Both the position numbers and the translations under genes were made by a program. Below, piece by piece: positions 3,701 to 33,040 of a stretch of 64,000 nucleotides of DNA; positions within the stretch are counted from its first letter, which is position 1; each line of letters opens with the position of its first letter. Below the pieces are notes generated by a model that saw only the letters and a program-made list of their open reading frames with translations, was not told the DNA's origin and did not search any database. This DNA comes from Dictyophora rubrovolvata (taxonomy: Eukaryota > Basidiomycota > Agaricomycetes > Phallales > Phallaceae): contig CP114123.1 in assembly GCA_029959195.1 (NCBI GenBank), positions 2,108,001 to 2,172,000 of the forward strand. Direction: 5' to 3'.

Positions 3701-5565
3701 TCAGGGACTGATTATGTCCCCGACCTTCTCTCGTGTAATGGGAGTAAAGACATTCAAACTTGACAAGCCTGTCACATTACAGCTAGCCATCAAAGGCAGT
3801 AAATCGTCCATACAATATGGAATGTACACCCGAATAGAATTCAGTGATGTAGTGGTGATGGAGTACTTTGACATTGTCAATATAGATTATTACGATGTAA
3901 TAATTGGCGTACCGTTCCTGAGGAGGTACGGTATATGTCTAGACTTTAGTCAGGGCACTATCACATACAACAGTGTAGTCATTGACCCTAACAAGCACAT
4001 TATTGGAGAACTGTCGACGACAACAGCTATGGCAGTGACCACAGTCACTACACTGGATACTGGTAAACTCGCGCTAACGCCCAAGAACATACCCGCTCTA
4101 ATTGAGTATTGGAAAGACAAGTACAGCGACTTGTTTGGCCCTGTGCCATTAGAACTTCCTCCATTTCGGGAGGTTAATCACCAAATCCCACTTATCGAAC
4201 CAGATAAGAAAATCCGGTATCACATGCCCCGATGCCCGGACGCATTGAAGGGTCTTCTCGCTGAGAAGATAGAATGCTATGTGAAAGCGGGATGGTGGGA
4301 ACCCACTGTGGCCCAACAGGCCATACCAATGCTCTGTCTCCATAAGTGAGCACTCACAGGACTAAGGACCATATTTGATCTGCGACTGCAGAATGATAAT
4401 ACCGAGAAGGATGTAACTCCATTCCCGGATCAAGAGACCATCTGTCAAGATGTGGCCAGACACCCGTACAGGTCAAAGATTGACTTGACAGAAGCCTATG
4501 AACAGGTATGCATCGTACCTGAGGATGTCAATAAAACGACATTTGCAATGATCTATGGCATGTTCAAGAGCCATGTAATGCAGCAAGGAGACTGCAATGC
4601 CCCGTCAACCTTCCAACGGTTGATAACACACATCCTCCGGGATTGTATAGGGCGTAGTACCCATGTGTACATCGATGATGTATTCGTATACTCCACGTCA
4701 GTGGAGGCACACCAGGAACACCTGGAGAATGTCTTTTCTCGACTAAGAAAAGAGAAACTCTACCTGAGTCATAAAAAGGTAGATCTCTATTCCAAGCGAA
4801 TGGAATGTCTAGGTCACATCATCAACAATGATGGAATCCATCCCGATGAAGAGAAGATGGATAAAATCCGCGAATGGCGGATTCCTCGAATGTACAATGA
4901 TGTACAAAAGTTCTTAGGACTTGTACAGTACATAGCAGCCTACCTCCCAGGAGTAGCTGCATACACAACCCCATTGTCGGGTTGTACACACAACAACAGG
5001 ACGTTCATATGGACGCTGCTGTTAAATAAATGCTTTGACTCCATCAAAGCGTTAACATGCAAGGCTCCAATATTGAAGCCTATAAACGTGGACAACCCAG
5101 ATCCCATCTGGTTGGTCACCAACAGCTCTAAATGCAGAGTCAGTGCATACTATGGGCAAGGGCCCACTTGGCAAACATGCAGGCCCGCAGGGTTTCTTTC
5201 AAAGAAATTTACCCCGGCGCAGCACAATTACCGCACCCATGAACACGAGCTAATTGCTGTGTTAGAAGCACTCCTCAAATGGGAGGATAAACTACTAGGG
5301 TGCAAGTTCACCCTTGTTACAGACAACGAAGCATTGTCATATTTCAAAACACAACCGCGAATGTCACCTAGACAAGCTCGGTGGTTTGAATACCTGTCTT
5401 GTTTTAATTACGACACAGTGCATGTAAAAGGCGAGACCAATACAGTCACTGATGGACTTTCTCAATACTTCGAGGAAGATAATGAGGATGAACAACACCC
5501 GCCAGAGGTGTATGTAAATGCAGACGCTCGTCTAGACCCCTCTGGGGACCAGCTACCAACAGAAC
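761..5565 (+). mobile_element. Ty3/gypsy retrotransposon, fossil, 3' part absent
   Basis: The left end is fixed by the interruption of LTR family A. The 5' LTR begins TGTAAC; its right edge is unresolved, with GTTACA ending at 829 or at 1036 as candidates. Parts in order are a Gag region (about 1100-2940), a zinc knuckle CFHCGQMGHYRTNC (about 3200), an aspartic protease motif LVDSGCQG (about 3690), reverse transcriptase with YIDDVFVYS (about 4670) and RNase H (about 5080-5450). No integrase or 3' LTR is present because the neighbouring chromovirus LTR abuts at 5566. The coding part lies in several blocks, so the copy is broken with roughly four or five breaks. Age is not measurable without its second LTR. 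Confidence 0.85.
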
Positions 5566-5971
5566 TGTCAGGGTACACTAGCATCGTCCCCTTATTTTTC
5601 TACATTTATCTTCAGTTCTGGTCTATTTTATTTATTTCCATATTTCTCGTATTCTATTCCATCTCTTGCATTTCCCTCTCCTTCCGTATTCCCATTTTTC
5701 CTCCAATGGGCGCTGAGCGCCCGTTCTCATCAGAGCCATGGCCTAGGCCCCAGCTAAAAGTCTGGGACTGGCGCATATCCGTGCCCAGTCCATGAACTGA
5801 AGGCCGTGTGTGGCCTTCGCCGTTTTTCATAGTATATAGTTAGTAGCCCTAGAGGAGGGATCCCTAAGTTTGTTCTCTTAGGATCCCCTCCCTCTAGGTG
5901 AGTTAGTATTATTCCTAGAATATATTTTGCTTAGGATCCCCTCCCTCTAGTCTGAGTGAGTAGCCCTGACA
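5566..5971 (+). repeat. Chromovirus 5' LTR (family 2)
   Basis: This 406-bp LTR has 8-bp inverted tips TGTCAGGG and CCCTGACA. A TATATA motif lies at about 5833-5838, about 30 bp before AAGTTTGTTCT (5866-5876), the likely transcript start. Three solo copies of the same LTR lie at 16338-16743, 22643-23049 and 33225-33630. Confidence 0.93.
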
Positions 5972-5973
5972 GT

Positions 5974-5984
5974 AGAACAAACTT
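5974..5984 (+). other. Candidate self-priming primer-binding site
   Basis: AGAACAAACTT, 2 nt after the 5' LTR, is the exact reverse complement of AAGTTTGTTCT at 5866-5876 inside the LTR, which sits about 30 bp after a TATA box. Tf1/sushi elements are known to prime reverse transcription from the first 11 nt of their own mRNA. No tRNA-type TGG start is seen here. The assignment is inferred from the complementarity and the chromodomain. Confidence 0.7.
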
Positions 5985-8900
5985 CTACCCTGGGACCAGT
6001 CATTTCTATCAACGTTCACCTTCGGAAAATTGTCCTCGACAATGACTCATTCCATCTCGAGTCCTTCCTCATGCTCTGTCTATAACTTGACCCTTCCCAT
6101 CCTTCTTACTGTGCACCTAGGCTATTTTTACTATCATGGAACCCGACCAGGCTACTCTGAATCTAGAGCAACACCTCGCAGCTATGGAACAAAATTTCCT
6201 TACGTGCAACACTCGACTCGAACAACTCCTATCTCATCTCGAACCGTTTCTTCAACCTCAACTCCCGTCTGACTCTCCATCAGAACCCCCAGTAAACCCT
6301 CAATCCGCCAATGTTCCCCCAATCTGAGCATCGGCTCCATCTTCCACACGAGATTCACGAAATTCTCGTAATACCTGTCCCGCAGTGCCTCAGTCCTTTG
6401 ATGGTGATAGAAACAAAGGACACATGTTCTGGAACTCTGTCCAGATCTATATGAGCGCATGTAGCAAGGATTTCACGACCGACCAAGAAATGATCATTTG
6501 GACACTATCGTATATGAACGACGGCCACGCCCACGTTTTTGCTAATAGCCTGCTACAGAAGTACCTCGCAGGTATCATTCCTTTCGCGACTTGGGGAGAA
6601 TTCCGACTCAAGTTCGAAGAGGAATTTCTGCCCTTAACCGAATGCGATGATGCCCTCAACCTCCTCCTATCCGGCAGATATGCTCAAGGAGGCCGAACTG
6701 TAGAGGATTATGTGGACTCCTTCAATGTCTTCATAGAACGTGCTGGCTTCACAGATAGCTTTGCCATCACAACGCACTTTCGACAAGGATTAGACCCGAC
6801 AATTCAGTCCAAGGTCGCTACCATGCAGAGCCGACCCACATACGAAGATTTCAAAGGCTGGGTCAAGGCTGCGCGCGTTTTTGACCAAGATAGAAGAGCA
6901 AACGAAGCCTTCAGTGCCACTCGACGTCGCCAACTTCCAACCCCGTCGACTCCTAATTCCTTAATGATGGCTCCTATGTCTCGTCCTAGACTGGCACCTT
7001 TCCTGCCTCTAAGACCCACTATCCCCCAGTACCAACCACCTCCATTCCCACCTCCTAGGCCAGTTGCTCCTGGGTTTGCTGCTGCTCCGCCTAGGCCGTC
7101 GATTCCGGTTCAACCTCCTCAACAACGTCATGACCTGATGGATGTTGATGCCACACGTCGACGGATGACCGCGGAATCCACTAGATGTTACCGTTGTGGA
7201 CAAGCTGGGCATCTCATGCGTGACTGTCCTCACACGCATGACATTCGTTTCGTGAACACAGACGAGATCGACAACCTTGTCGAACTGCTCCTTGCCCAGA
7301 AGGACGTTGCAGAAGCGCAGAGTCGTGCAGGGCCTGGACCAACAGAGGAAGAAGAGACTCCTGCACCAGTAGCAACAGAGGATTTTCAGGAAGGCGACAA
7401 GTGAAGGATACACCCTTGTTGCCGACATTCAATAGATTCGACGTTTTGTACATAGATCATGAACAAAATGATGATAGTAATTCGAATCCTATTACCCCTG
7501 CTGTATCTCCTAAAAACCCCCCTCTCCCTACACCTTCTTCTATGCCGCCACCTCCACGACTCTCGACTTCGAAGCGGAAGTCACTACCCTCTGAATATTG
7601 ACTCGCAGCCACCGCCGGTACTCAGAAACTTGAAATCTCAGTAGAGCTCCAGAGTACTGACACAGGAGATTTGATCACCAGCAAAGCCATGCTTGACACG
7701 GGTGCTAGTGGTATGTTCCTGGACCGCGAGTTCGTTGAGAGACATCGACTCCCGACTGTCAAACTCCTGAAACCTATTCCTGTATTCAATGTTGATGGTA
7801 CACCCAACCAGGCCGGTGCTATCACACATGTGGTTGATCTGGTTATGAGGTATCAGTCCCACTCTGAATGCGTACTATTTGCCGTTACCGCACTTGGAAA
7901 ATATCCCATATTACTGGGGCTACCTTGGTTCAAGGCCCACAACCCGGTGATTGACTATACTGCTGGAGAAGTAGAACTGACGCGTTGTAGTCCCCAATGT
8001 CGTTCCTGTGCGCCCAGCTGGCCTTCGGGTCGTTGCACTAAACGTTCCTTTCGACAGATCCGAACGTCTGAAGATGTGAAGCTTGACAACACCGAGGCTG
8101 AAGATCCTGACATGCCTGATCTGGCAGACATAGAAGATGAGCTCCAGCTTGAGGACAGCGATCGACTCTTTGGTATTTCGATGGTTGACACTGGACCCGA
8201 GTTCCATCGCGTTGGCACAACCGAGACCATTTCACAAAGACTTGCTCAAGCCCACGCCAAGAACTCAGATGCTCCAGCCCCCAAGGGTTTTCGCGATATC
8301 GTGCCTGAACAATTCCATGACTTTGATGACATCTTTTCCAAAGAATCCTTTGATTCGCTACCGATGTCAAAGAAATGGGATCACCCAATAGAACTCGTCT
8401 CTGGTTCAGAGCCCAAATCCAGTAAGATCTACTTGCTGTCACCGAAGGAACAGGCCGAGTTGGATGCGTTTCTAGAGGAAAACCTCAAATCAGGACAGAT
8501 CTGACTCATGAAGTTGCCAATGGCCTCACCGGTCTTCTTTATCAAAAAGAAGGATGGTTCCCTTCGTCTCATTCAGGATTACCGGGCTCTGAATGCGATG
8601 ATGATCAAGAACCGTTATCCATTGCCCCTTATCCCGGAACTCATCAATAAGTTGCAGGGTGCCCGCTGCTTCACAAAGCTCGATGTTCGATGGGGCTACA
8701 ACAATGTGCGGATAAAGGAAGGCGACGAGTGGAAGGCCGTGTTTCATACTAATAGAGGCCTTTTCGAACCTTTGGTGATGTTTTTCGGCCTTACTAACAG
8801 TCCAGCCACCTTTCAGACGATGATGAACGAAATCTTTGAGGACATGATCTCAGAAGGTGTTGTCGCCATGTATATTGACGATATCCTCATCTATACATGA

Positions 8901-10176
8901 GATTTGGAACAACATCATCGTATTACTCGATGCGTACTCGAACGGCTTCGTGAGCACCAGCTATACCTTAAGGCGGAGAAATGCGAGTTCTGCAAGACCA
9001 AGATTGAGTACCTCGGGATGGTCATATCCGAGAATACAGTCGAAATGGACCCTGTGAAGGTCTCGGGTGTTAGGGACTGGCCTGTCCCGAGAAACGTCAC
9101 TGAAGTTCAATCCTTCCTCGGTTTTGCTAACTTCTATCGTCATTTCATCAAAGACTTCTCTCGTATTGCGCTTCCAATGTTCAGTCTGACCAAAAAGGAC
9201 ACCTTGTTCGTCTGGTCCGACAATTGTCAGCAAGCCTTCGATGCACTCAAGCTCTCAATCACTTCGGCTCCCATCTTGCTCATCCCAGACCCTGCTAAAC
9301 CCTACAAAGTTGAGGCAGACAGCTCCGACTTTGCTTCTGGCGCGGTTCTCTTGCAGTTATTGGACGAGGACTGTAAATGGCACCCAGTCGCGTTCTTCTC
9401 GAAAGCCCTGAGCCCCATAGAACGCAACTACGAGATTCATGACAAGGAAATGCTGGCAATAATTCGAGCCCTGGAAGAATGGCGACACTTTCTCGAAGGC
9501 ACAAGTCACCCCATCGACATTCGCACTGACCATAAGAACTTGGAGTACTTTATGACCGCTCGCAACCTCAATTGTCGACAAGCTCGGTGGTCAGTCTATC
9601 TTGCTCGATTCAACTTCACCCTCCAGCACATCCCGGGTAAGTCAATGGGGAAGCCCGACAGCCTCTCTCGACATGCAGATCACGGATCGGGAAAGGATGA
9701 CAACCAAGGGATCACCCTTATCCGACCCGAGATGTTTGCAATCAATGCCCTGCAAACGTTCTGTATCCGAGGAGAAGAGGAAGACTTCCTATGTCAGATT
9801 CACAAGGCCAATCGAGAAGGCAAGCATGAGGATAGCGTCTCCAAAGCCGTCACTTCTCTTCGAGCTCTCAGTGGTCATTCGGTGCATACCAGTGAATGGT
9901 CTGAAGATCGGGATGTCCTCTACTACCGTGGTAAGATCTATGTTCCCAATGTTGAGGATCTATGATGAGAAATCGTTGCACGTCATCATGATACCAAAGT
10001 CAGTGGTCACCCTGGTCATTTTAAAACTCTTGAACTGGTCTCTCGAACCTTTTGGTGGCCAGGTGTGTCTCGGTACATCCAACGATACGTCGAAGCCTGC
10101 GATCTCTGCTTGCATACGAAAATAGCTCGCCACGCACCCTTTGGCAAGTTGCGCCCCACTGAGACACCACACTGTC

Positions 10177-10450
10177 TGTAAGAGTCTGGACTCTTATCCG
10201 AGTTCCCCGAGTCGGAGACTACAGACGTAGTCAGCTTGTCTTACTTTCATTTATTCTTTGTCTTTATTAATAGTTTCTTTCCATAAGTTTCCTTTTATTT
10301 CTTATTAGATAATCTTTCTTTTTCTTATAAATACTCGAGATGTAGATATTTTATTCTTTAGCTTCTAATTCTACGAAGGTTACTACACTCATTGTTGTCT
10401 GATCCTCGTTTTATCTGAAGTTCTTGTGTAAAAGTCTTCCGACTTTTACA
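10177..10450 (+). mobile_element. Small solo LTR (family F) inside the integrase region
   Basis: This 274-bp insert starts TGTAAGAGTCTGGACTCTTA and ends with a GACTTTTACA tip, flanked by perfect 5-bp duplications CTGTC (10172-10176, 10451-10455). Each tip is itself a short palindrome. The AT-rich core has no ORF. TG...CA ends with a 5-bp duplication identify a solo LTR from another family, younger than the chromovirus copy that holds it. Confidence 0.88.
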
Positions 10451-11614
10451 CTGTCCTTGGGAGTTCATATCTGTCGACTTTATCGTTGAACTCCCAGAAT
10501 CTAATGGGTATGATGTGATCCTCTCTGTGGTAGATTCGCTAACCAAACGAGTTCATTTCATTCCCATGTTCACCACTATCAACGCATCTGGTCTCGCGAG
10601 TCTATACCTGCAACATGTGTGGAAGCTGCATGGCCTCCCTGACAAGATCATTTCCGACAGGGGGCCACAGTTTGTGGCATGCTTCACGAAGGAACTCTCT
10701 CGACTCCTTGGCATTCGACTCACCACGTCCACAGCCTACCATCCCCAAACCGATGGTCAGACCGAGAGGGTTAATGCAGAAGTCGAACAGTACATCCGAC
10801 TCTTCACCTCGGAACGACAGGATGACTGGGATAGGCTGCTTCCCATGGCCGAGTTTGCATACAACAACCACATACACTCGGTGACGCAAGTGACACCTTT
10901 TGAGTTGGACATGGGCCGTCAACCGCGTATGGGCTTTGAACCTCGTATCCCCAAATTGAAAATCGAGTCTGTCAACGAGTTCAAAGACTGTATGTCATCA
11001 ACTATCGAAGAAGCCAGAGCTGCTATCATCAAGGCCAAGGACGACATGGCCAAGTACTATGATCATAAACGACTCCCAACTCCCGAATATAAGATTGGTG
11101 ACAAGGTCTACCTCAATGCCAGTGACATTCGCACTACCAGGCCTTCAGCAAAGTTGTCCCATCACTTCCTAGGGCCTTTTCCTATAGCAGCAAGAGTCGG
11201 CTCTCATTCATATCGCCTACTCCTACCCAAATTGATGTCACGGCTTCACCCAGTCTTTCATGTCGTGAAGTTACGTCCGAGAACAGAAGATACCATCCCA
11301 GGTCATCATTCTCGAATCCCTCCTCCTCCCGAGATTCGTGATGATGGAGAACATTATGTTGTGGAAGAGGTCTTGGATAGTCGAGTCCAACGGAGCAAAC
11401 TCGAATTCAAGGTTCGTTGGGAAGGTTATGGCCCGGAGCATGATCAATGGGTACCAGAGAAGGACCTTGCAGCCCCCGATCTCTTGGGTAAATTCTATCA
11501 AGAGCATCCTAATGCATCACGTGCGATAAATGGTCTGTTGTTCTGCCCACGGTCAATCCAACCTTGGGAGAGACTGCAGGCGTCAGGCCGACGCCTGGTT
11601 GAAGAGGGGGGTGG

Positions 11615-11645
11615 TGTCAGGGTACGCTAGTGTCGTCCCCTGACA
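11615..11645 (+). repeat. Chromovirus 3' LTR remnant
   Basis: Only 31 bp remain, bearing both LTR tips (TGTCAGGG start and TGACA end) directly after the purine-rich tract. It is far shorter than the 406-bp 5' LTR, and this marks the element's right end against the interrupted zinc-ribbon gene. Confidence 0.8.
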
Positions 11646-12139
11646 GACATGAGCATCTGGGCTGATTAAATCTACATAGCATTGAGAATCTGGAACATCT
11701 TCATGCGGATTGGCAGGTTGCTTCATAATGTTTTTGGTATGCTGTAATAGAGCTGATGCTGACAATGAGAAAATACCAGTTAGTTAGTTTGCAAGATATG
11801 TATTAATGCAATTATCACTAATAAAACACACCTGACGGATCGGATGGGGTTTCTGCCAGGTCCAAATCTTGCATAACATGGCGTAACTGCTGTATTACCA
11901 CACCCGCAGGTTTTCCTAAACCATTGAAGAAATCATTACTTCATAGAATATGCAATACTGGAAACGTACCATAACCCTTCTGGGTACAATAGCCACAATA
12001 GGCAGTACTCAAATGCTGTCGTGCACCAAAATCTTCCTAATAAGGAAACATTCCGATTTTTGGTTCAAAACGGTTTTAAAACTACCAAAAACTTAACCGA
12101 CACACCACAGCCTCTAGAAAACAAAACTTTACAAAAAAG

Positions 12140-12772
12140 ATGGCCGCATTTTTATTTCACTATACATCATCAATCTCCTTGCCCATTCCAGCATCCCCCT
12201 CTGAGTCATTACCCCCCTCCGATGATGAATCTATATCACCTTTCTGTTTTTTGCCTACCAGTCCAAGGACATACAATTTGGATCTGCATACAACCCCCCA
12301 TATTTATAGTTCCCAGTATGCAAGTCTCGACATTGACGAAGAAACATACCTCCCGAAGTTCCCTCCACCTCATATTATTTGTCAATGTAGAAGTTCGGAT
12401 TTGGTTCACCCCGGTCTCATGTTTGGAGAAAAGGTTTATATCGAGGAACGATTAGACTGGTTTACAATTATCAACATTTATTCTACACCCGAATCAGCCG
12501 TTAAAGACTCATATCGGATTTGGTTAGTGACACAAGAAGGGTTCGAATTTACATTCCTGGTTCTAGATGTGCCAAGTCGTTGGGTTGTCATGAAAAACAT
12601 AAAAACACAAAAACATAGCCCATATAGACCGGCCAATCTTGTTCCTGTAGATCCTCAAATGTCTCGTTTTTCACCCCATTCACCAGAACCAATATCTCTC
12701 CCCTCTTCTCCATCCAAACGATCCTTCTGAAAGATCCGACACGTTTGCTCAAACCTTCTTGGACGAAATTAG
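12140..12772 (+). pseudogene. Gene X of the two-gene repeat, copy 1
   Basis: This is a homologue of the intact X at 19401-20033, well over 90% identical by eye, starting at the same ATG (MAAFLFHYTSS). I recognise no domain. A serine/proline-rich N-terminus is followed by a conserved core with CRSSDLVHP, STPESAVKDSYRIWLVTQ and VLDVPSRW, then a basic tail. Treated as part of an LTR-like element; about one break. Confidence 0.65.
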
Positions 12773-12877
12773 GACAAAAGGCTTGATTAGGATAAGCGAT
12801 TAGATTTGTATTTCATCTCCTTCTTTCTTTCTGGACATTTCATTAGCGCTTAAAAATTTTGGTTAACTCATATCATC

Positions 12878-13456
12878 ATGTCGGACAATAACGATACTCC
12901 TACTTCCCCTATTCCCCTTTTTCAACTCCCTTTCTTCCCTTTTGAATATTGTTCTTCTCTCAGATTCGGACCCAACCCTAATTTCCTCTCACGACTTCGC
13001 GTTTACAATATTCTCATCTCTGAAATCAATGTCAATCCCTCCACAATGCTTCCGATTACTCCACTGCCACTAATGGAGATTACTATTCCTTACGACAATC
13101 TGGAGATAGGATATCCATGAGCTTTGACCCTGTATGAACGAACTAACATCAATGTCATGGACGAATCGTACGAGTTTGTCGAGTTCCTTTCAACAAATCA
13201 TCAAGAAGAATCAATCTGGAGACTGGTTTTTCATCACCAATTTCAAAGTTATACTCAATTCCTATTCATAGATGCACCTCTATCTGCTATCCCGTCCCCT
13301 CCCGACTACACCGTTGGAAATCAAATCCTCCCTTCCTATTCTGATCTCCAATCCAATCTCGTTCAAGATCTGATATTGTTAAGTGTTGCCATGGCTTTTA
13401 TTGTTATGTCACAGCCACGAAGAAGAAGATCTCGTCAACAAGAACCAGATCAGTAA
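12878..13456 (+). pseudogene. Gene Y of the two-gene repeat, copy 1
   Basis: This is a homologue of the intact Y at 20139-20705, beginning MSDNNDTPTSPIPLFQLPFF. It has the same order of conserved blocks, ending with a hydrophobic stretch and a basic RRRRSRQQ tail. It lies about 105 bp after X. About one break; unknown function. Confidence 0.65.
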
Positions 13457-14563
13457 GAAGTTTGGGATGGTAAAGTTATAGTTTTGAGTAAGAGGCAGTG
13501 CGAGAAGTGCCAGATGGTGATTTTGGTAAAGCTATGCTGGGAGTCCGGTTTCATCATTTCCTTTTGATCTCTTTTTGTTTTTCCTTTTGTTCTCTTTTGT
13601 TTCTTTTTTCTTTCAACATATTTCTCCTATTCCCCTTAACTACATATGTGATTCCCCTTTTCTGTAATTGTACTCCCTGTCATCCTCTCACGATGCTCCT
13701 TTTCTTTTGTTTCTTTGTTCTCTTTTTGTTTTCTCATGGTGAATGATGAGTGATCATTCCACTTTCCTCTATGTTTCCAAATGGTATATATACTGCATGT
13801 GAATAATTGTAACAGCAGCAATCTACCGGAACGGTTGTCTCAAGTTTTAGTTCAGTTTAAGTCAAGTTCAAGTCTAGGTTTCGTCTCTAGTCTATTTCTA
13901 CGCTCATGTCTATTTCTTTGGATTACTCTGAGTGAGGCCTCGGAGTATAAACTCAACGATTCGTATTGTCATTGAAGCCTTACTAACTTTAAACAGATTA
14001 TCATCGCTGTATTATCGACGGTGTATTGTCATATCATTTTATTACAAAACTCACATTCATCATCCACAACAAGATCTTAGGATCGTCAATTTTTTTGTTG
14101 TTGTTTGGTTTGATATCAACACCCACACTCGCTATATCATATATTCCCCCACCCTCCTCTTCACGAAATCAGCACCAGGACCCGCTCCACAGAGACTAGA
14201 CGGCCTCAAACAAAAATATCTTCGTAGTTTTTCCGATTGTGTATTTAGCTATGACATTTAGCTATTATCTTCGGATCGTTACAACGCGGGAACAGCCTTC
14301 CACATTTTACACATTGCTTTCCTTCACTTTTGCCACCAGTATTGGTGTCTTTGCACTTGCTGCAAATTTCATCGTAAAGGTGAGGAAAAGACATACTGCA
14401 GGATGGGCAGACTGTAGGAATGGAGGAAGGAGCAGGAAGAGAGGTTTGTAATGCAGACATTCAAAGTAGAAACAACATGGAATTGTTCAATGTTCACAAA
14501 TTAAAGCTTCATATTTATATGAGAGAATGTTTTCGTTTTTTTCTGAAGTCATTTGAGCGGCCT

Positions 14564-18394: not shown

Positions 18395-19400
18395 GTTGTG
18401 CACCAAAGTGCTTACCAATCAAATTGGTCTTTTTTCCTCTTATCTTTTTCTATTCTCAAGGACTTAGTAATAAGTCCCTATCTATCTCTACTAATTTGAA
18501 CTTAATTCTTCAAATCTTCCTTCAAGAGTCTCACCTTCAATAACAGGACTTTTAGTTGCTGAACAATCCCTAAACAAAACTCTATTATATTTTATTAGGA
18601 GCTGAGCCTATTCTAAATCTAAAACAAATTCCTCACAGTTAGTACAGCTCATGTACAACTTATCTGCCTCGTGTCTAGTGCTGTATGCATGTTCTCTGTT
18701 TTCATGACTCATTTTTTCTATAACTTTCTAATATTTTCTATTGCCTCATGTTCAGTTTTCCAATTTGTATTCCACAAATTTGTTACGTATGGCAGCCCAG
18801 AGCTATGTATTCCGGATACTTCCAAAGAAGTCCAGACCACGGGGTCAGATGGGAGGCGGAGTACTGAAGTACGGAGTGAGGGACTTGACTTCAACTTATA
18901 TGTTGCACCCACTTGCCCAGCTTACGATATCCCTCGATTTTGGAATACGAGGAAATATGCAAGTATGCACTATTCCGATGACAGAGTACAAGTCCACGTC
19001 GTCAAAGACAACGTGAATGACAAGTACGAGTTGACTTGAATGTTAAGTCCAAGCCAACTACACAATACGGATTAAGAGTATGAGACAGACTAGAGATGAG
19101 GGAATAACTGATTATATTCAGACTGAGGATCCACAGCTGAGGGAGCTGGGGTTTAAATATAGGAGGGAGTGGAACTACATAAATGGGGATAACAACAAAT
19201 AAGGGAAGGTGGGAACAGGCTAGTGCGAGCCAAGACAATGGTAATATAATCTAGGTACCTTGTTACTAGGTAACCGGTGTCGCGCACCAAAATCTTCCTA
19301 ATAAGGAAACGTTCCGAATTTTGGTTCAAAGCGGAGTTTCAAACTACCAAAAACTTAACCGATACACCACAGCCTCTTGAAATCAAAACCCTTACAAAAA

Positions 19401-20033
19401 ATGGCCGCATTTTCATTTCACTATACATCATCAATTTCTTTGCCCATTCCAGCATCTCCCACCGAGTCATTACCCCCCTCCGATGATGAATCTATATCAC
19501 CTTTTCGTTTTTCGCCTTCCAGTCCAAGGACATACGATTTGGATCTGCATACGACTCTTTATATCTATAGTTCCCAATATGCGAGTCTCGACATCGACGA
19601 AGAAACGTACCTCCCGAAGTTCCCTCCACCTCTTATTATTCGTCAATGCAGAAGTTCGGATTTGGTTCACCCCGGTCTCATGTTTGGAGAAAAGGTTTAT
19701 ATCGAGGAACGATTAGACTGGTTTACAATTATTAATGTTTATTCTACACCCGAATCAGCCGTTAAAGACTCATATCGGATTTGGTTAGTGACACAAGAAG
19801 GGTTCGAATTTACATTCCTGGTTCTAGATGTGCCAAGTCGTTGGGTTGTCATGAAAAACATAAAAACACAAAAACATAGCCCATATAGACCAGCCAATCT
19901 TGTTCCTGTAGATCCTCAAATGTCTCGTTTTTCACCCCATTCACCAGAACCAATATCTCTCCCCTCTTCTCCATCCAAACGATCCTTCCGAAAGATCCGA
20001 CGCGTTTGCTCAAACCTTCTTGGACGAAATTAG
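19401..20033 (+). CDS. Gene X, unknown protein of the two-gene repeat (copy 2)
   Basis: The ORF of 210 codons starts at the ATG conserved with copy 1 (an in-frame ATG lies 24 bp upstream). I recognise no known domain. The N-terminal 60 residues are rich in Ser, Pro and Asp; then comes an aromatic core with KVYIEERLDWFTI, YSTPESAVKDSYRIWL and FLVLDVPSRW; the C-terminus is basic (RKIRRVCSNLLGRN). There is no signal peptide and no clear membrane segment. Copy 3 keeps the same order with markedly different sequence but an open frame, which suggests the protein was selected. Gene Y follows after 105 bp, possibly on the same transcript. A role in the host element is unknown. Confidence 0.6.
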   Translation: MAAFSFHYTSSISLPIPASPTESLPPSDDESISPFRFSPSSPRTYDLDLHTTLYIYSSQYASLDIDEETYLPKFPPPLIIRQCRSSDLVHPGLMFGEKVYIEERLDWFTIINVYSTPESAVKDSYRIWLVTQEGFEFTFLVLDVPSRWVVMKNIKTQKHSPYRPANLVPVDPQMSRFSPHSPEPISLPSSPSKRSFRKIRRVCSNLLGRN

Positions 20034-20138
20034 GACAAAAGGCTTGATTAGGATAAGCGATTAGATTTGTATTTCATCTCCTTCTTTCTTTCTGGACATT
20101 TCATTAGCGCTTAAAAATTTTGGTTAACTCATATCATC

Positions 20139-20705
20139 ATGTCGGACAATAACGATACTCCTACTTCCCCTATTCCCCTTTTTCAACTCCCTTTCTTCCC
20201 TTTTGAATATTGTTCTTCTCTCAGATTCGGACCCAACCCTAATTTCCTCTCACGACTTCGCGTTTACAATACTCTTGTTTCTGAAATTGATGTCGACCCC
20301 TCCACAATGCTTCCGATTACTCCACAGCCACTAATGGAGATTACTATTCCTTATGACGATCTGGAGATAGGATATCCACGAGCTTTAACCCTGTACGAAC
20401 GAACCAACGTCAATGTCATGGACGAATCGTATGAGTTTGTCGAGTTCCTTTCAACAAATTGTCAAGAAGAATCAATCTGGAGACTGGTCTTTCGTCATCA
20501 ATTTCGAAGTTATACTCAATTCTTATTCATAGACGCACCCCTATCTGCCATCCCATCCCCTCCCGACTACTCTGTTGGAAATCAAACCCTCCCTTCCTAT
20601 TCCGATCTCCAATCCAATCTCGTTCAAGATCTGGTATTGTTAAGCGTTGCCATAGCCATTATTATTGCGCCACAGCCACGAAGAAGAAGATCTCGTCAAC
20701 AATAA
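20139..20705 (+). CDS. Gene Y, unknown protein of the two-gene repeat (copy 2)
   Basis: The ORF encodes 188 residues beginning MSDNNDTPTSP. I recognise no family. Blocks shared with copy 3 include a YDDL motif, LYERTNVNV, YEFVEFL and WRLVF...QFLFIDAPL. Near the C-terminus a hydrophobic run (LVLLSVAIAIIIA) is followed by PQPRRRRSRQQ, which could be a tail anchor or a basic binding tail. A TATA box about 320 bp downstream would start a different transcript, so X and Y would lie upstream of it, as U3 genes would in an LTR. Confidence 0.55.
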   Translation: MSDNNDTPTSPIPLFQLPFFPFEYCSSLRFGPNPNFLSRLRVYNTLVSEIDVDPSTMLPITPQPLMEITIPYDDLEIGYPRALTLYERTNVNVMDESYEFVEFLSTNCQEESIWRLVFRHQFRSYTQFLFIDAPLSAIPSPPDYSVGNQTLPSYSDLQSNLVQDLVLLSVAIAIIIAPQPRRRRSRQQ

Positions 20706-21829
20706 CCAGATCAGTAAGAAGTTTGGGATGGTAAGATTATAGTTTTGGGTAAGAGGTAGTGCGAGAAGTGCCAGATGGTGATTTTGGTAAAGCTATGCTG
20801 GGAATCCGGTTTCATCGTCTTCTTTTGATCTCTTTTTGTTTCTCTTTTTGTTTCAACATATTTCTCCTATTCCCCCTAACCACATATGCGATTCCCCTTT
20901 TTTCTGTAATTGTATCCTCCATCGTTTTCTCCTTTTTCTTTTGTTTCTTTGTTCTCTTTTTGTTTCCTTTTGTTATCATGGCGAATGATGAGTGATCATT
21001 CTGCTTTCCTTTATGTTTCCAAATGGTATATATACTGCATGTAAATAATTGTAACAGCAGCAATCTACCGGAACGGTTGTCTCAAGTTTTAGTTCAGTTT
21101 AAGTCAAGTTCAAGTCAAGTTTCGTCTCTAGTCTATTTCTACGCTCACGTCTATTTCTTTGGATTACTCTGAGTGAGGCCTCGGAGTATAAACTCAACGA
21201 TTCGTATTGTCGTTGAAGCCTTACTAACTTTAAAACAGATTATCATTGCTGTATTATCGATGGCGTATTGACTCACCATTTTATCGCAACTCACATTTAT
21301 CGTCCCCCTCACACACACACGATCTTAGGATCGTTTTATTTTTTTGTTGTTGTTGGTTTTATATCGACACACACACACTCACTAAATATCATATTATTCC
21401 CCCACCATCCTCCTTACGAAATCAGCACCAGGACCCGCTCCACGGAGACTAGACAGCCTCAAACAAAATATCTTCGTAGTTTTTCCGATTGTATAGATAG
21501 CTACGACATTTAGCTATTATCTTCGGATCGTTACACCGGGACAGGCTTCCCCATAAGGAAGGTTTGTGATATGGAGTGTGGATGAGAGTATGGAGTATGG
21601 AGTGTGGGAAGTGGAACAGATGATAGGGGGTGGAGTCCGGGTATATCCAGACTTGGGCTATGGGGCATACGGGGCGTGACAAAATTGCTTAAAACCCTCA
21701 CCTGCTGTAGTTGATGTATATAATTCATTCCACATCCTAATCCTTTTGCTCTTTCAATGTCTCCCTCCTCTTATCTCTTTTCTCATGCTGAATAACAATC
21801 CTGCTGGCCATAATCAACATTCTGCCATT

Positions 21830-23783: not shown

Positions 23784-25150
23784 TTGGTTCCCCTTTCCTT
23801 CCTGTTCGCTCCTGTTGTGCATGTATCACTTGCTGTTGCTTGCGCATTCTCATGGTCAAGACTTGTTTTTCCCAATGCACAGCATCTACTTATTTTCTGT
23901 GACAATACCAATGCCATAGATTGTTTCTTCTCACTCAAGGCTTTCGGGTTTCCCAACGACATACTTCATCTTTGTTGTGATAGGATCATTTGGGATGATA
24001 TGGACTTGCATGTCCGATACATCCGCACTAAGGACAATTGGATCTCCGACTGTCTCTCCCGTGGTCTTCTCTCTCGACTAGAATCACAAGGTATTCACAC
24101 CACAGAATGGCAGATCCCCAATGACCTCCTTCTGCTCACCCAGCTCTATCTAAGGGAAGCAGACAATGTCACCGAGAAGCGTGGACAATCAAGCGACTCA
24201 AACAGCTAAACAGCTCTGAGCCCTTGCACTAGGCCATTGTCTAGCCCCATCAATGAAACTCACTTATTCATCTGCACTAAACTCCTACATAAATTTCTGC
24301 CAACTACATTTATTCGAGATCAACCCCACAGAGGACACTGTCAGTTTCTTTACTGTGTACATGTCCTATCACATCAGACCTCATTCAGTTGCTTCATATC
24401 TATCGGGAATCCAAACACAGCTTGAGCCATTCTATCCACACATCCATGCAGTTTGTCGTTCAGCACTTGTGACAAAGACTCTTCAGGGGTGCAAGCGACT
24501 CTGCCACTCCGAAATATGTCGTCGGCAGCCACTGTCACCTGAGGACATTGAGAAGGCCATCCAAGTCTGTGGTTCATCTCACAGTCATGATGACTTGCTT
24601 TTTGTCATGCAGCTAGTTGTTGGTTTTGCTGCATTACACCAGCTGGGAGAGTTGGTCTGGCCTGATAATGTTGCCTTGCAGTCATTTACAACCTTGCCTC
24701 CGCGACACAAGGTTGAGTGGGAAGTCAGGCACTTCTCTTATTTCCTACCTGGACACAAGGGAGATCGTACTTTCCAAGGCAACTGGATTGTAATCCAACA
24801 ACAACTGGGTGGTGGCATTGACCCTATGGCACTATTCAGACAATACATACAGTCACGCGACTCACTGTTCCCTGGAAATCCTTTCCTTTGGGTGAAATCA
24901 GATGGTTCCATCCCCTTGCGCTCCTGGTTCATGGGGTGACTTGCTTCTCTTTTCCCCTCGACCATTGGGAGGCACTCCATCAGAGCTGGTGGTGCTGTTG
25001 CTTTAGCACTGTCTGGTGTTCCTCCAGATCACATACAGGACATCAGACGGTGGACGACTGACACCTTCAGAATTTACATTCGCAAAAATCCCATTTTGCT
25101 CCACTCGCTCATCACAGGCCGAGCAGCATTCGTGTCGATGTCAAATTGAA
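23784..25150 (+). mobile_element. DIRS-like (tyrosine-recombinase) retroelement fossil
   Basis: An RNase H-like domain (HLLIFCDNTNAID, then LHVRYIRTKDNWISDCLSRG; about 23784-24190) is followed by a tyrosine recombinase with an N-terminal SAM-like domain (about 24253-24500) and a catalytic domain ending with HSIRAGGAVALALSGV, RRW and RIYIRKNP (about 24980-25130). RNase H directly before a tyrosine recombinase is the DIRS arrangement and excludes Crypton. Only this 3' part is seen; no reverse transcriptase or terminal repeats were found. Broken, with a few breaks; age unknown. Confidence 0.75.
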
Positions 25151-25593: not shown

Positions 25594-25800
25594 AGTCAAT
25601 TTGTATGGTTCGGCTAAACAGACTGACAAGCCTGGTGCAGGGCAATCCACAAGTAGTTAGTAAATATGTAGACCCTTGTCACACAGTTTAGCTTCCATTT
25701 AGCCAAATATGAACTAAAATAAATATAGATTGACTGAACTAAAATAACTAGAGTTTGAGCGCTGTGGTTCAGAGTGGGTGCTGGTGATCTGCTATCTTAT
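25594..25800 (+). repeat. Left terminal inverted repeat
   Basis: It matches 35215-35462 in inverted orientation with small indels. The outermost alignable bases are AGTCAATTTGTATGGTTCGG on this side and AGTAAAGTTGTACGGTTCGG on the other. Confidence 0.75.
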
Positions 25801-25839
25801 CTACCAGCCATCTTATCTCCATGACTGGCCAGATAAACC

Positions 25840-27464
25840 TCAGGAGTCCCCGCACGATGTAGAGCCAGGCTGGCAGGACAGCTGAGGTGCATATTGGATA
25901 GTGGGTGGTAACAGATATGGGTTGGATGGATGAGGTTGAGCATCATGACAATGGGGATGGGAAGGGTAGGTGATGGGTGACAACGGGTAATCATTGGACA
26001 GGCAATCTTGGGTATTGGGTGGTACCGGGTATGGATTGGATGGGTGAGGTTGAGGGAAATAAGATGGCTGAGGTGGTAACAGGTATGGATTGGATGGGCG
26101 AGGTTGAGCACCATGACAATGGGGATGGGAAGGGTAGGTGATAGGCGCAGTTGATACATTGGGAGGATAGTTGGGAAAATATTGGGGAAATGTCGGATAA
26201 GGATTGAGAGGGGGGCGTTGACTGGTTTCATGAACAGAAGGTTGAGAACTGGGGGAAGCATAAGACGGCCGGGGTCGAGAACCTTGAGATGACGGCATAC
26301 AAAGATTAGAAGTGAATACGAGCAGGGAAATGGCCAGCCATGCACACAGGCTATTTGGAGGAGAAATAGCAGAAGGAGACGGTGCATTAGATGTAGAATT
26401 CTGAAATAAATTCCAATCAGTAATTTTGCAAAACATTAAAATTAAAGCAACAATTACCATTTCTGTACGCTCAAGTTCAGCTGGCCTATCAAGAAGCTTG
26501 TGGTTGAATAACTCCTGTGCTGGTAATATTCCTGATGGAATAATACATCCAGACCCTTGAGAAATCAGTTTATCTAATTTATCATGTTTTTTTTGCAGTG
26601 TGTTGTTGGTAGTACGAAGTTGTTTTATCGCGGTCTCAATTTTCTCTGGCGACTCCAACTCTAGTGCGTGTTTCACCCCCTGAGCGTTTGTTTGTACATT
26701 TTGTTGTAGCTTGATTATTGTTTCATTTACTTGTGTTATCTGGGAGTCTTTGAGTTCAACAATTTTTCTCTGACCTCGTTCTAGGCATTCGTTAACTATA
26801 CATATCATATTACGAGACACATACAGCTTACCTTTCTTCCCTATGGCTTTTCTGGCTCTTCGAAATGGTGTGGAGTTTTGATCGTGAACATGTACACCTT
26901 CCTGCGTGAAAATGTGACAGCTTTGAATTGCTCTGGAATCATATTGAAATCCACACATAATCCCTGCAAGCATCGTTAGTTGCATCCCATCCCAGTTAAT
27001 GTTTCTGTGCACTTGCTCATTTCCATTAGATGTTGTCGGAGCCACTTTCCAAATTTCAACCAGAATCTTCCTTAGAGGTTGATATATACCTGCCAATGTC
27101 ATGTTATTTGACTTTTCCTTATCTTCAAGCCATTCTGTAAAAGCGTGAATTTATTATTTAATAAACTTAATTAGTATGACGTACTAGCAGCTTTTTTCCC
27201 GCCCCTCCGAATGCATTTGAGTATTTTTTCATAGTCAGGCAGAGGTTCAGCAGATGCCAGACTGATCATTGCAGTTCTGACTTTGCTGGAAATTGAATTT
27301 TTTAAGCCGGTAATATTTCGAAGATTGTTACGCCTGCTTAGTGTGTATGTAACCTCGCTTAACTTCCCGAAACCCTGCCCGTTCCTTATTGGGCAACTCC
27401 CCAAAGTCACTGTTTCCAAACTTGTCTGCGTCATCCTTTTTTCATATTGGTCATCACGTTTCAT
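25840..27464 (-). pseudogene. Transposase-like gene, C-terminal part
   Basis: An exon at about 27171-27464 reads RTAMISLASAEPLPDYEK and joins, through a short intron with acceptor near 27130, to KWLEDKEKSNNMTLAGIYQP. Then come TTSNGNEQVHRNINWDG, a coiled-coil-like stretch (about 26600-26800) and, after another intron, a Pro/Tyr-rich tail. Protein motifs of this kind form the C-terminal third of a basidiomycete family whose N-terminal parts match the pieces further along the minus strand. The tail contains a repeated module (ITYPSHPHCH ... PSNPYLLPP, twice). The gene is separated from its central part by a solo LTR, and no intact upstream junction is visible. Confidence 0.55.
25915..26155 (-). 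repeat. Repeat within the Pro-rich tail
   Basis: Two near-identical stretches of about 70 bp (about 25915-25985 and 26071-26150, offset about 156 bp) encode ITYPSHPHCH and PSNPYLLPP twice, an in-frame duplication in the transposase-like tail. Confidence 0.6.
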
Positions 27465-30146: not shown

Positions 30147-30980
30147 TGTAATGATCTGAAGATAATAGCTAAATGTCGTAGCTATATATACAATCGGAAA
30201 AACTACGAAGATATTTTGTTTGAGGCCGTCTAGTCTCTGTGGAGCGGGTCCTGGTGCTGATTTCGTAAGAAGGAGGGTGGGGGAATAATATGATATTTAG
30301 CGAGTGTGTGTGCGTCGATATAAAACCAACAACAACAAAAAAAATGATGATCCTAAGATCGTGTGTGTGTGAGGGGGACAATAAATGTGAGTTGCAATAA
30401 AATGGTGAGTCAATACGCCGTTGATAATACAGCGATGATAATCTGTTTAAAGTTAGTAAGGCTTCAACAACAATACGAATCGTTGAGTTTATACTCCGAG
30501 GCCTCACTCAGAGTAATCCAAAGAAATAGACGTGAGCGTAGAAATAGACTAGAGATGAAACTTGACTTGAACTTGACTTAAACTGAACTAAACTTGAGAC
30601 AACCGTTCCGGTAGACTGCTGCTGTTACACGTATTTACATGCAGTACTTATACCATTTAGAACAAAAGAAATATTTTTGGAATTTTTAGGAGGTTTAACA
30701 ATAAGCAATTGTAAACCGTTTTCATGACACAATAAAAGAAAAAGAAAGAAGAAAAAGAGAGGAAGAGTTACATTTGGGGAGAACAACAAGCAATGAGGAA
30801 TTTTTCAGGGAGGAAATAGAAGTACAACAAACACAAACAGTCCCAATTTGGAAGAAAGTGATACTCTCCTTTTTTACCATTTTCGCACCATACTGCCACA
30901 GCAACAATTCCTCCATTTTCTTAATCTCTTATTCTTCTCCTCTTTATGAGTCATACATCCTCTTCTTCCATCAGTCGAGG

Positions 30981-31440
30981 TCATCTAGTTATCGGCAAAT
31001 AAAATGTTACTGAATTAGTTGCCTCGTAGCGAGGGGATGGAGTAAGGGGATTGGGAGGGTTAGAATAGAAACTGGGAGGGTATGGGAACACGTCTAAAGG
31101 GGCATCAAGGAATAGGACTTGTCTGGCTAAAAGCACAGATTGTTGGAAGATGAGTCGCCATGCTGGCCGTCCATCTCGATACATCTGTAGATATGCTGCA
31201 AGTTCATACAAATGTCCCTTTACTCTGATATGATATTGATCATATAAACAAAGTATTGGCGGTAACCTTAAATCATCGTAGTAGAGCGTATGTTGGATGT
31301 ACCCATCATGAAAGGGTAATAAGGTTTCTTCGTTGACATTGATTAGTCCTTTTCGGCGGAGGACATATTCTCATATGACCGTTTTGAAATTGCCATGTGG
31401 GCGATTGGATGATGCCATGGTGTAAGAGGCTGTGAGGTCG
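30981..31440 (-). pseudogene. Gene Y of the two-gene repeat, copy 3
   Basis: Homology to Y is seen in INVNEETLLPFHDG, YYDDL, LYELAAYL and WRLIF...VLFLDAPLDVFPYPP, in the same order as copy 2. Divergence is large at the protein level. About one break. It lacks the RRRRSRQQ tail. Confidence 0.5.
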
Positions 31441-31571
31441 ATCATTATGGTAGCGAAGGGATAGAGTAAGGCTGAAGAAACTTGGAACTCCGAAACAAAA
31501 AGAGACCAGATGATTAAAATAGATGTTTACCCTTATACGTTATTTTTGTTCTTTATTATGTTCCAAACTGA

Positions 31572-32225
31572 TCAAGCTCGTTCTGGGAATCCAGAACAAA
31601 CACGTCGAAGTGTGCGGATTGTTTGTTGATATCGAGGAGGGCATATTGTTAAATCAGAAGAAGTCGGAGATAGGGGAGGTGAATTATGGTTAGACGAGGA
31701 GTTTGTTGGTTCTTTGGGAAGGGGATTGGCAGGTTGATAGAATCCTAAGACCAGTTGGTGATTGCATGATGATAGGATCCATCGACTAGGAATGTCCAGA
31801 ACCATTATCATGTATTCTAACCCAACTTGTGTCGTTAACCAGACACGGTATGAATCTTGTAAGGCTGATTCTGGCGTAGAATAAACATGAGTTACTGTAA
31901 ACCATCTTAGTTCCTTCTCGATGTAGACTTCTCTTCCAAACGCCAAGAAGGGATGTACGATATCTGAACTTCGACATTTATGGATACTTCTAGGAACCTT
32001 GTGCGAGTAGACTGGGAGAAGAGTCGTGGGGTCAATTTGGAGGATAGGCATCGGGGAATAATAAGTGAATAATGTAGTCTCGATATCCAGATCATGAGTA
32101 CGAGGACTATCATGAATATAACGAAATATCGGAGGGATAACATCTTCTGGGGAAGAATCTTGGGTGTCTGGGGAAGAGGTAGGATTTCTAATCGTGAATG
32201 TGGATGAGAGACGAAGATTGAACAT
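31572..32225 (-). CDS. Gene X of the two-gene repeat, copy 3
   Basis: This is an open frame of 217 residues (start MFNLRLSSTFTIRNP). It aligns end to end with X of copy 2: RTHDLDIETT, IHKCRSSDIVHPFLAFG, EVYIEKELRWFTVTHVYSTP, DSYRVWLTTQ, VLDIPSRW and the C-terminal RRVCSGFPERA. Roughly half the residues differ, yet the frame is open. That is the best sign that X is a genuine protein. Function unknown. Confidence 0.62.
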   Translation of the reverse strand: MFNLRLSSTFTIRNPTSSPDTQDSSPEDVIPPIFRYIHDSPRTHDLDIETTLFTYYSPMPILQIDPTTLLPVYSHKVPRSIHKCRSSDIVHPFLAFGREVYIEKELRWFTVTHVYSTPESALQDSYRVWLTTQVGLEYMIMVLDIPSRWILSSCNHQLVLGFYQPANPLPKEPTNSSSNHNSPPLSPTSSDLTICPPRYQQTIRTLRRVCSGFPERA

Positions 32226-32318
32226 TTTATTGTTATTTGAATAAGGGAATTTGGGTAAGTTGATAGTCGCTTTCTAGGAAGGGAGGATTTGAATGTCCGC
32301 TTTGGATAAGCAGCCTAA

Positions 32319-33040
32319 TCACCAAATGAGGAAGGTTTTGGTGCGCGACACCAATTCATCGGTTGACAAGTGACATCTGTGTTCCATCAATGCAGCGAAG
32401 AATCCCAAAGTCTTGGTGAAGATTTCTCTATGAGTGTCAGGCATCCTTACAGTTGTGTCAGAAGTAATTCTGTTGTTGAAGGTATAACGTTTGATTGAGC
32501 GGCCTAGGGTAAAATGGTGAGTTTGCAAGATATAAACACAATAAAAAGGAACAAACAGCTTCTCTCAAGTTTAGTACATAGCACTGGCATGTAGGTAATA
32601 CTATAGTGATCCAATAAATGACACTGGACATCATTGTGCTGGCTGCGTTTGTCACCTAACAAATATTGAAAGTTGTCTTTGGGATGAACCCAACCTTTGA
32701 GATCAATGGGGAAAATATGCACTACTGCTAAACCATGGGAGGACCCAGATTTGGGAAACTCAATAATAGCATTTAAGGTGTGCTCAATAATCGCATGAAC
32801 ACTGCTTGAGATGTTTCTGGTGATGTGACCTTCCCCCTTTTCAATTTCCTCGGGTGACAAGACTTTCAAAGTTCCTGAAGAAAAATTTATTGCGGTGGGT
32901 TCTTCAGGTTCTTCAAAAGTTAAGGGAGGAGGTGAGGAATTATCTCCAATCAAGTCATTTCTACTCAAGCCAGCATCCTTTAACAGCTGCTTTGTTTGAC
33001 GCAGAGCTTCAGTTTGTCTAGCGGAATAGGTCGACATCAT
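32319..33040 (-). pseudogene. Transposase-like gene, N-terminal part
   Basis: The start is MMSTYSARQTEALRQTKQLL, followed by an acidic Pro-rich stretch (SPPPLTFEEPEEP), a hydrophobic helical region, then DLKGWVHPKDNFQYLLGDKR and CHLLDHYSITYMPVLCTKLE. A short intron probably leads to GRSIKRYTFNNRITSDTTV and AALMEHRCHLSTDELV at 32351-32500, where the two-gene repeat interrupts the gene. The layout fits the N-terminus of the same transposase-like family as the two parts further on. Confidence 0.55.

Follow-up and report, generated by a model that had tools for sequence, protein, structure and literature searches.

We identified, in the window (the whole 64,000-nucleotide stretch of DNA analysed here), a unit with TG..CA ends that carries two genes ahead of a TATA box and an ORF-free tail, and that belongs to a young LTR-like family with three diverged classes in the genome. 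By its anatomy and by the mosaic structure of its copies the unit works like an LTR. The preliminary description had read it as a giant solo LTR with genes in U3; the LTR-like character and the U3 position of the genes held (ends, target duplication, TATA box with tail, mosaic), but our search yielded neither a pair of copies nor a primer-binding site, and for that reason membership in a retroelement is inferred and not claimed. We lean, narrowly, towards the reading that the units are solo LTRs left by a retroelement, the body of which has gone or is missing here, with ORF1 and ORF2 as its accessory proteins.

The features of the units within the window are listed in Table 1. The TG..CA repeat is real, but it ends one base later than the 21534 given for it in the preliminary description, because the A of the supposed perfect duplication of about 5 bp, ACCGG, belongs to the terminal ..TTACA; the actual duplication is 4 bp, CCGG, and a length of 4 bp fits other copies too. 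The two ORFs, the TATA stretch and the ORF-free tail that had been reported to follow one another were all present, and the unit indeed has no terminal repeats of its own except for short imperfect inverted tips (TGT..ACA, with agreement at 9 of the first 14 bases, counted by eye). A candidate splice acceptor ahead of ORF1 (CTTAAC..CAG) was dropped, being absent from class B.

Table 1. Positions in the window of the three LTR-like units and of their parts
Feature	Position	Strand	Basis or remark
Class A unit, TG..CA, 2258 bp	19278..21535	+	tips and copies genome-wide
Left target-site duplication, CCGG	19274..19277	+	sequence reading
Right target-site duplication, CCGG	21536..21539	+	sequence reading
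Conserved 5′ tip, TGTCGCGCACCAAAATCTTCC	19278..19298	+	common to classes A and B; first 18 nt also in class C copies read
ORF1, 210 aa	19401..20033	+	no Pfam or PDB sequence match
ORF2, 188 aa	20139..20705	+	no Pfam match; possible distant ORF1 paralogue
TATA box, TATATATA, proposed U3 end	21027..21034	+	TATA..TACTGCATGTAAATA block present in classes A, B and C
ORF-free tail, proposed R-U5	21050..21535	+	without A/B difference (85% threshold) past element position 1743
Two predicted hairpins in tail	21165-21188, 21194-21216	+	folding and pair counts, weak support
Second class A unit	12017..14283	+	91% identical to 19278-21535; duplication ATGC/ACGC (one transition)
Class B unit, 2204 bp	30147..32350	-	flanks TTGG/TCAG; no duplication unless two core transitions are allowed
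Class B ORF1, 217 aa	31572..32225	-	43% identical to class A ORF1 (protein)
Class B ORF2 remnant, open stretch without start	30984..31370	-	32% identical to class A ORF2

Three copies with conserved tips TGTCG/TTACA had been described in the window, and three related copies are there, although the third is of a different class and has slightly different tip letters. In the second class A unit, ORF1 is shortened to 196 aa and ORF2 is broken by a stop. The class B unit resembles class A DNA mainly over its last ~519 bp (95%) and over a ~210-bp stretch of ORF1 (72%). Several other features were noted nearby. Just upstream of the second class A unit lies a decayed chromodomain gypsy (5566-11630) with a 406-bp LTR at 5566, a gag-like ORF, a reverse transcriptase (RT) and an integrase with chromodomain, and another gypsy-like piece, with a match to RT, occupies about 2553-5560. 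An ORF at 24253-24939 resembles a tyrosine recombinase by eye and has no Pfam match, and on the minus strand at 25797-27102 two overlapping ORFs, the longer with only sub-threshold Pfam matches, accompany a repeat with 74-nt copies at 25904 and 26072.

The genome searched, which includes the window, comprised 28.2 Mb in 11 contigs. Judged by its gypsy, copia and gene content, it may be that of a fungus, probably a basidiomycete. The 21-nt 3′ tip had 97 matches at up to 2 mismatches, versus 0 for its reversed control pattern, and the 5′ tip had 132 at up to 3 mismatches, versus 1; the abundance of both tips is far above chance. Among 100 of the 132 5′ tips listed, 92 precede an ORF1 of class A or B and the other 8 do not. 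On contig C1 (875538-900266), outside the window, eight mirror-symmetric 5′ tips with four coordinate sums all equal to 1775804 seem to mark a palindrome of ~24.7 kb or an assembly artefact. Equal numbers and kinds of stops in the inverted copy pairs C10:1383589/1399009 and C7:1555161/1565041, also outside the window, suggest other inverted duplications.

A DNA search with the window unit gave 42 matches among the best 40 of 217 candidates, and 36 of the 42 were full-length and 95-100% identical to the window copy, and are therefore young. Protein searches with class A, B and C ORF1 queries gave at least 212 matches, corresponding to at least 194 loci (A 83, B 50, C 61). A locus here joins ORF1 pieces within 3 kb, some loci are fragments, and a stricter list gave 176; the searches scored the best 150 of 182-212 candidates, so that ORF1 and ORF2 counts are lower bounds. 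In one alignment, ORF1 of class B showed 47% and that of class C 32% identity to class A. ORF2 is present in all three classes, mostly with 29-36% identity between them, and in the copies read it follows ORF1. Complete reading of two class C units gave lengths of 2351 and 2353 bp; both end in TTACA and begin with the 18-nt 5′ tip, which in one of them carries a C to T change. Copies read from all three classes share the 5′ tip, the TATA box and the ORF-free tail; from the TATA box to the end, class A measures ~0.5 kb and class C ~0.4 kb. Both frames are open in many copies, and many others have stops, often TGA. A further ~590-bp repeat with TG..CA ends and a possible 4-bp duplication was seen at L009 (4121-4686 and 7349-7940), one copy being nested in a class B unit.

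We examined the insertion sites in 38 copies with both tips recognised, a set that leaves out one-tip copies and four copies with internal insertions (C2:2357180, C6:2094037, C9:445241 and C11:400407, of which the first, second and fourth have flanks that match by eye allowing core transitions, and C9:445241 does not). All 38 had a CG, TG or CA core on both sides; in the window these three together account for 17% of dinucleotides, CG alone for 3.8%. The 4-bp duplication was perfect in 16 of the 38, matched with C/T and G/A core changes allowed in 30, and did not match in 8. Most mismatches are C to T or G to A changes within the CpG core, a pattern suggestive of CpG methylation and decay in the genome. 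One class C copy interrupts a gypsy gag gene, a sister of which shows the target once and uninterrupted, as an empty site. Judged by eye from their flanks, two class A copies (C6:902226 and C6:2291379) were inserted into class C ORF1 at one and the same 4-bp site, in opposite orientations. Flanks differ between most of the copies read, each with a matching duplication of its own, and many independent insertions must therefore have taken place. Both outer flank letters differ in 3 of the 38 (C2:2372608, C5:1080968 and L006), and C11:800445 has only its right flank in common with a class C hot spot; four of the 38 thus appear to carry flanks from two different insertions, and exchange between copies therefore seems common here.

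A CpG core as strict as this is, as far as is known, unusual for retroelement integrases. The unit might instead be a Ginger1-like cut-and-paste DNA transposon with gypsy-type integrase preference that has kept only short tips and is mobilised in trans, with ORF1 and ORF2 as passengers or helpers. As described in PMC2836005, Ginger1 has the duplications CCGG (75%) and CCGT/ACGG (24%), TGTNR ends, inverted repeats of 40-270 bp and a transposase, and was reported there from four animal species. The unit resembles it in having CG-centred 4-bp duplications and ends that fit (TGTCG and TGTAA for TGTNR), and its duplications are mostly NCGN with the Ginger1 words included: among the matching duplications with CG on a side (n = 24), 10 are CCGG, ACGG or CCGT and the rest other NCGN words. 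In contrast to Ginger1, however, it has short imperfect tips in place of long terminal inverted repeats, and nothing in the units read was recognisable as a transposase gene. No clear stand-alone integrase or transposase was found among 69 rve matches in the genome. Nine of these had no same-strand RT within 5 kb (with 93 of the 99 RT matches used); two of the nine score exactly as copia/gypsy matches elsewhere, two are just over 5 kb from an RT, and five lie in frames of 103-224 aa. A transposon origin would also leave the TATA-tail block and the mosaic boundary unexplained, and we consider it improbable.

That boundary was located by comparing element positions 1359-2258 in 22 class A/A2 and 9 class B copies, two of the latter (C2:2361087 and C2:2366852) looking like mutual duplicates. 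There were 64 near-fixed A/B differences (at least 85% in both groups), all within positions 1402-1743, and 0 over the 515 bp from 1744 to 2258, within which the TATA stretch occupies 1750-1757. The genes are confined to the U3-like part of the unit, and the boundary falls just before the TATA box. Upstream of the box, class B bins were 38-64% identical to class A; downstream of it, three class B copies with an A-type tail were 92-99% identical to class A, and two A2 copies 72-96%. One tail type, r1, occurs with A fronts and with three B fronts, and the other, r2, with A2 fronts and two B fronts; front and tail have therefore reassorted at or near the start site.

Read from sequence, the TATA region and the boundary fit a U3-R-U5 order with a predicted promoter and start, and the boundary would fall close to where R-mediated strand transfer is expected. 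The shuffling of front and tail would favour this order, as LTR elements can shuffle at R. Gene conversion confined to the alike tail may be an alternative to strand transfer, and tails mixed internally, seen in 5 of the 10 rows printed, would also fit it. More broadly, the family might be an old dead repeat inflated by gene conversion and inverted duplication, the mosaic tail being due to conversion alone; the breakpoints inside the tail, the large palindrome on contig C1 and the other inverted duplicates speak for this, but the distinct flanks and own matching duplications of most copies read have already weakened it, and we regard it as very unlikely. The tail stretch with the two hairpins had fold z-scores of -2.0 in class A and -1.3 in class C. 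In rows that are related to one another, its covariation score was reached by 1 of 500 shuffles and its count of double-change pairs by 150 of 500. Decayed copies break the hairpin pairs, and the hairpins are a weakly supported prediction.

The preliminary description had proposed a search for direct pairs of the repeat enclosing gag-pol, and had named many copies without such a pair as an outcome that would speak against it; this was the outcome, as no such pair was found among the at least 194 ORF1 loci. The RT set held 99 matches (75 RVT_1 and 24 RVT_2). It was compared with ORF1 in stages: 164 ORF1 matches with 72 of the 75 RVT_1, then 183 matches (176 loci) with all 99, and finally 212 matches (194 loci) after addition of 29 short pieces (25 class C and 4 others). 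Only 3 of the 99 RT matches were flanked on both sides by a same-strand ORF1 within 15 kb, and all three were rejected as pairs: in two the flanking ORF1 copies are of unlike classes, and the third is a copia (C9:641806) inside a single class B copy whose ORF1 it splits into residues 1-152 and 149-217. Nor was there an excess of direct pairs among the at least 194 loci, with 73 same-strand versus 80 opposite-strand ORF1 neighbours within 15 kb, and 20 versus 31 within one class. For eight class A same-strand pairs listed at the 164-match stage, ORF1 identity to the query differs by 6 to 19 points between the members. A class C pair 8.4 kb apart (C8:904342/912706) was also discarded as an element, its first member having its own flanks (TCGC/TCAC) and the outer flanks being ACGG versus TCAC.

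No shared flank that could serve as a primer-binding site or purine tract was seen by eye in the copies read. The 3′ flanks of 18 further copies, also compared by eye, had nothing in common except between L041 and L042, and likeness among the flanks of other copies read was limited to insertion into the same kind of repeat. As a control we used a gypsy LTR family (TGTCAGGG..CCTGACA), in which 10 of 28 copies had 5-bp duplications, and GTAGAA followed 4 and GGGTGG preceded 3 of the 28, as expected of internal regions. One full element of this family was found at C5:438053-447105, with LTRs 91% identical and an outer duplication GGACT; the method therefore detects full elements when they are present. 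Two observations here count against solo LTRs: the copies are young yet no pair was found among the at least 194 loci, and gypsy in the same genome keeps two LTRs that are only 91% identical.

Another idea is that the LTR-like unit stands alone with its genes, moving without a gag-pol body by using the RT and integrase of other elements in trans. Young copies that are lone, an architecture common to the read copies of three diverged classes, the lack of a pair in at least 194 loci and selection on ORF1 all agree with it. So does the ORF1 leader, which is only ~123 bp long in the class A unit and in which no promoter was recognised by eye; a circular or tandem form would put the TATA promoter and the tail ahead of ORF1 and ORF2. 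Against it, no direct tandem or unit-unit junction was seen by eye among the 100 of 132 5′ tips listed, and no efficient route is known for copying a single LTR as a unit. We hold it to be rather doubtful; if true, a gene-bearing LTR-like unit would have turned into a mobile element of its own, lacking a body, encoding two conserved proteins and inserting at CpG in the integrase manner, with a promoter and leader oriented towards its genes solely in the circular or tandem form.

A Pfam search of ORF1 and ORF2 gave at most a sub-threshold match, and a PDB sequence search for the two gave none or E near 0.9. From a weak pairwise match, ORF2 is possibly a distant paralogue of ORF1. We compared the window copy with other copies, leaving out gapped codons and stop codons. 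Purifying selection acts on ORF1: against two subclass A2 copies pS was 0.29-0.31 and pN 0.08 (pN/pS ~0.27), and within class A pN was below pS in 19 of 19 comparisons. For ORF2, purifying selection was seen between subclasses (pS 0.17-0.22, pN 0.06-0.07, pN/pS 0.26-0.38 against the two A2 copies) and not within class A, where pN equalled or exceeded pS in 9 of 19 comparisons, so that there is no clear recent selection on it. The lack of clear class A selection on ORF2 counts against solo LTRs as well, together with the strict CpG core, the failure to find a primer-binding site or purine tract, and the internally mixed tails.

LTRs rarely contain genes, and a literature search for such genes, limited in reach, returned no case like the two-gene unit. 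Mouse mammary tumour virus has a protein gene, sag, inside its LTR U3; it resembles the unit in this respect and differs in having one gene and a known provirus, whereas the unit has two genes and no provirus was found. LTR elements of bdelloids reportedly acquired additional ORFs (PMC5408684), a possible likeness. A parallel in copy structure is crapaud of Podospora, which has, as in the unit, a variable front half (U3), a conserved rest and many lone copies (PMC10787394). In that account one crapaud burst consists solely of solo or fragment copies, the LTRs are 339-443 bp long, and 150 full copies were recorded in seven genomes (PMC10787394). The unit described here differs in being 2.2 kb long with two genes and in having no full copy found, whereas crapaud LTRs are short and full copies are known.

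If the units are solo LTRs, the unit would consist of a U3 with two genes, followed by the TATA box, R and U5. Copies would have been inserted at CpG by an integrase-type reaction with a 4-bp staggered cut; the ends, the duplications and one empty site are observed, and the enzyme is presumed. From the TATA region on, the tail would have been swapped between classes, most simply by R strand transfer during reverse transcription, as the mosaic suggests. The lone copies would be the product of recombination between paired 2.2-kb LTRs, with the gag-pol body lost or absent from the assembly; given such long LTRs and the signs that copies exchange sequence, the body may have disappeared completely. 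ORF1 and probably ORF2 would be accessory proteins, kept by selection on source copies; their genes would come last in the transcript of a full element, located in the U3 of its 3′ LTR.

The CpG-centred target is of interest in a genome with signs of CpG decay. A young, gene-bearing, LTR-like family for which no pair was found is hard to place in current retroelement schemes: either fungal retroelements use U3 genes in a way that has been overlooked, or LTRs are able to become independent.
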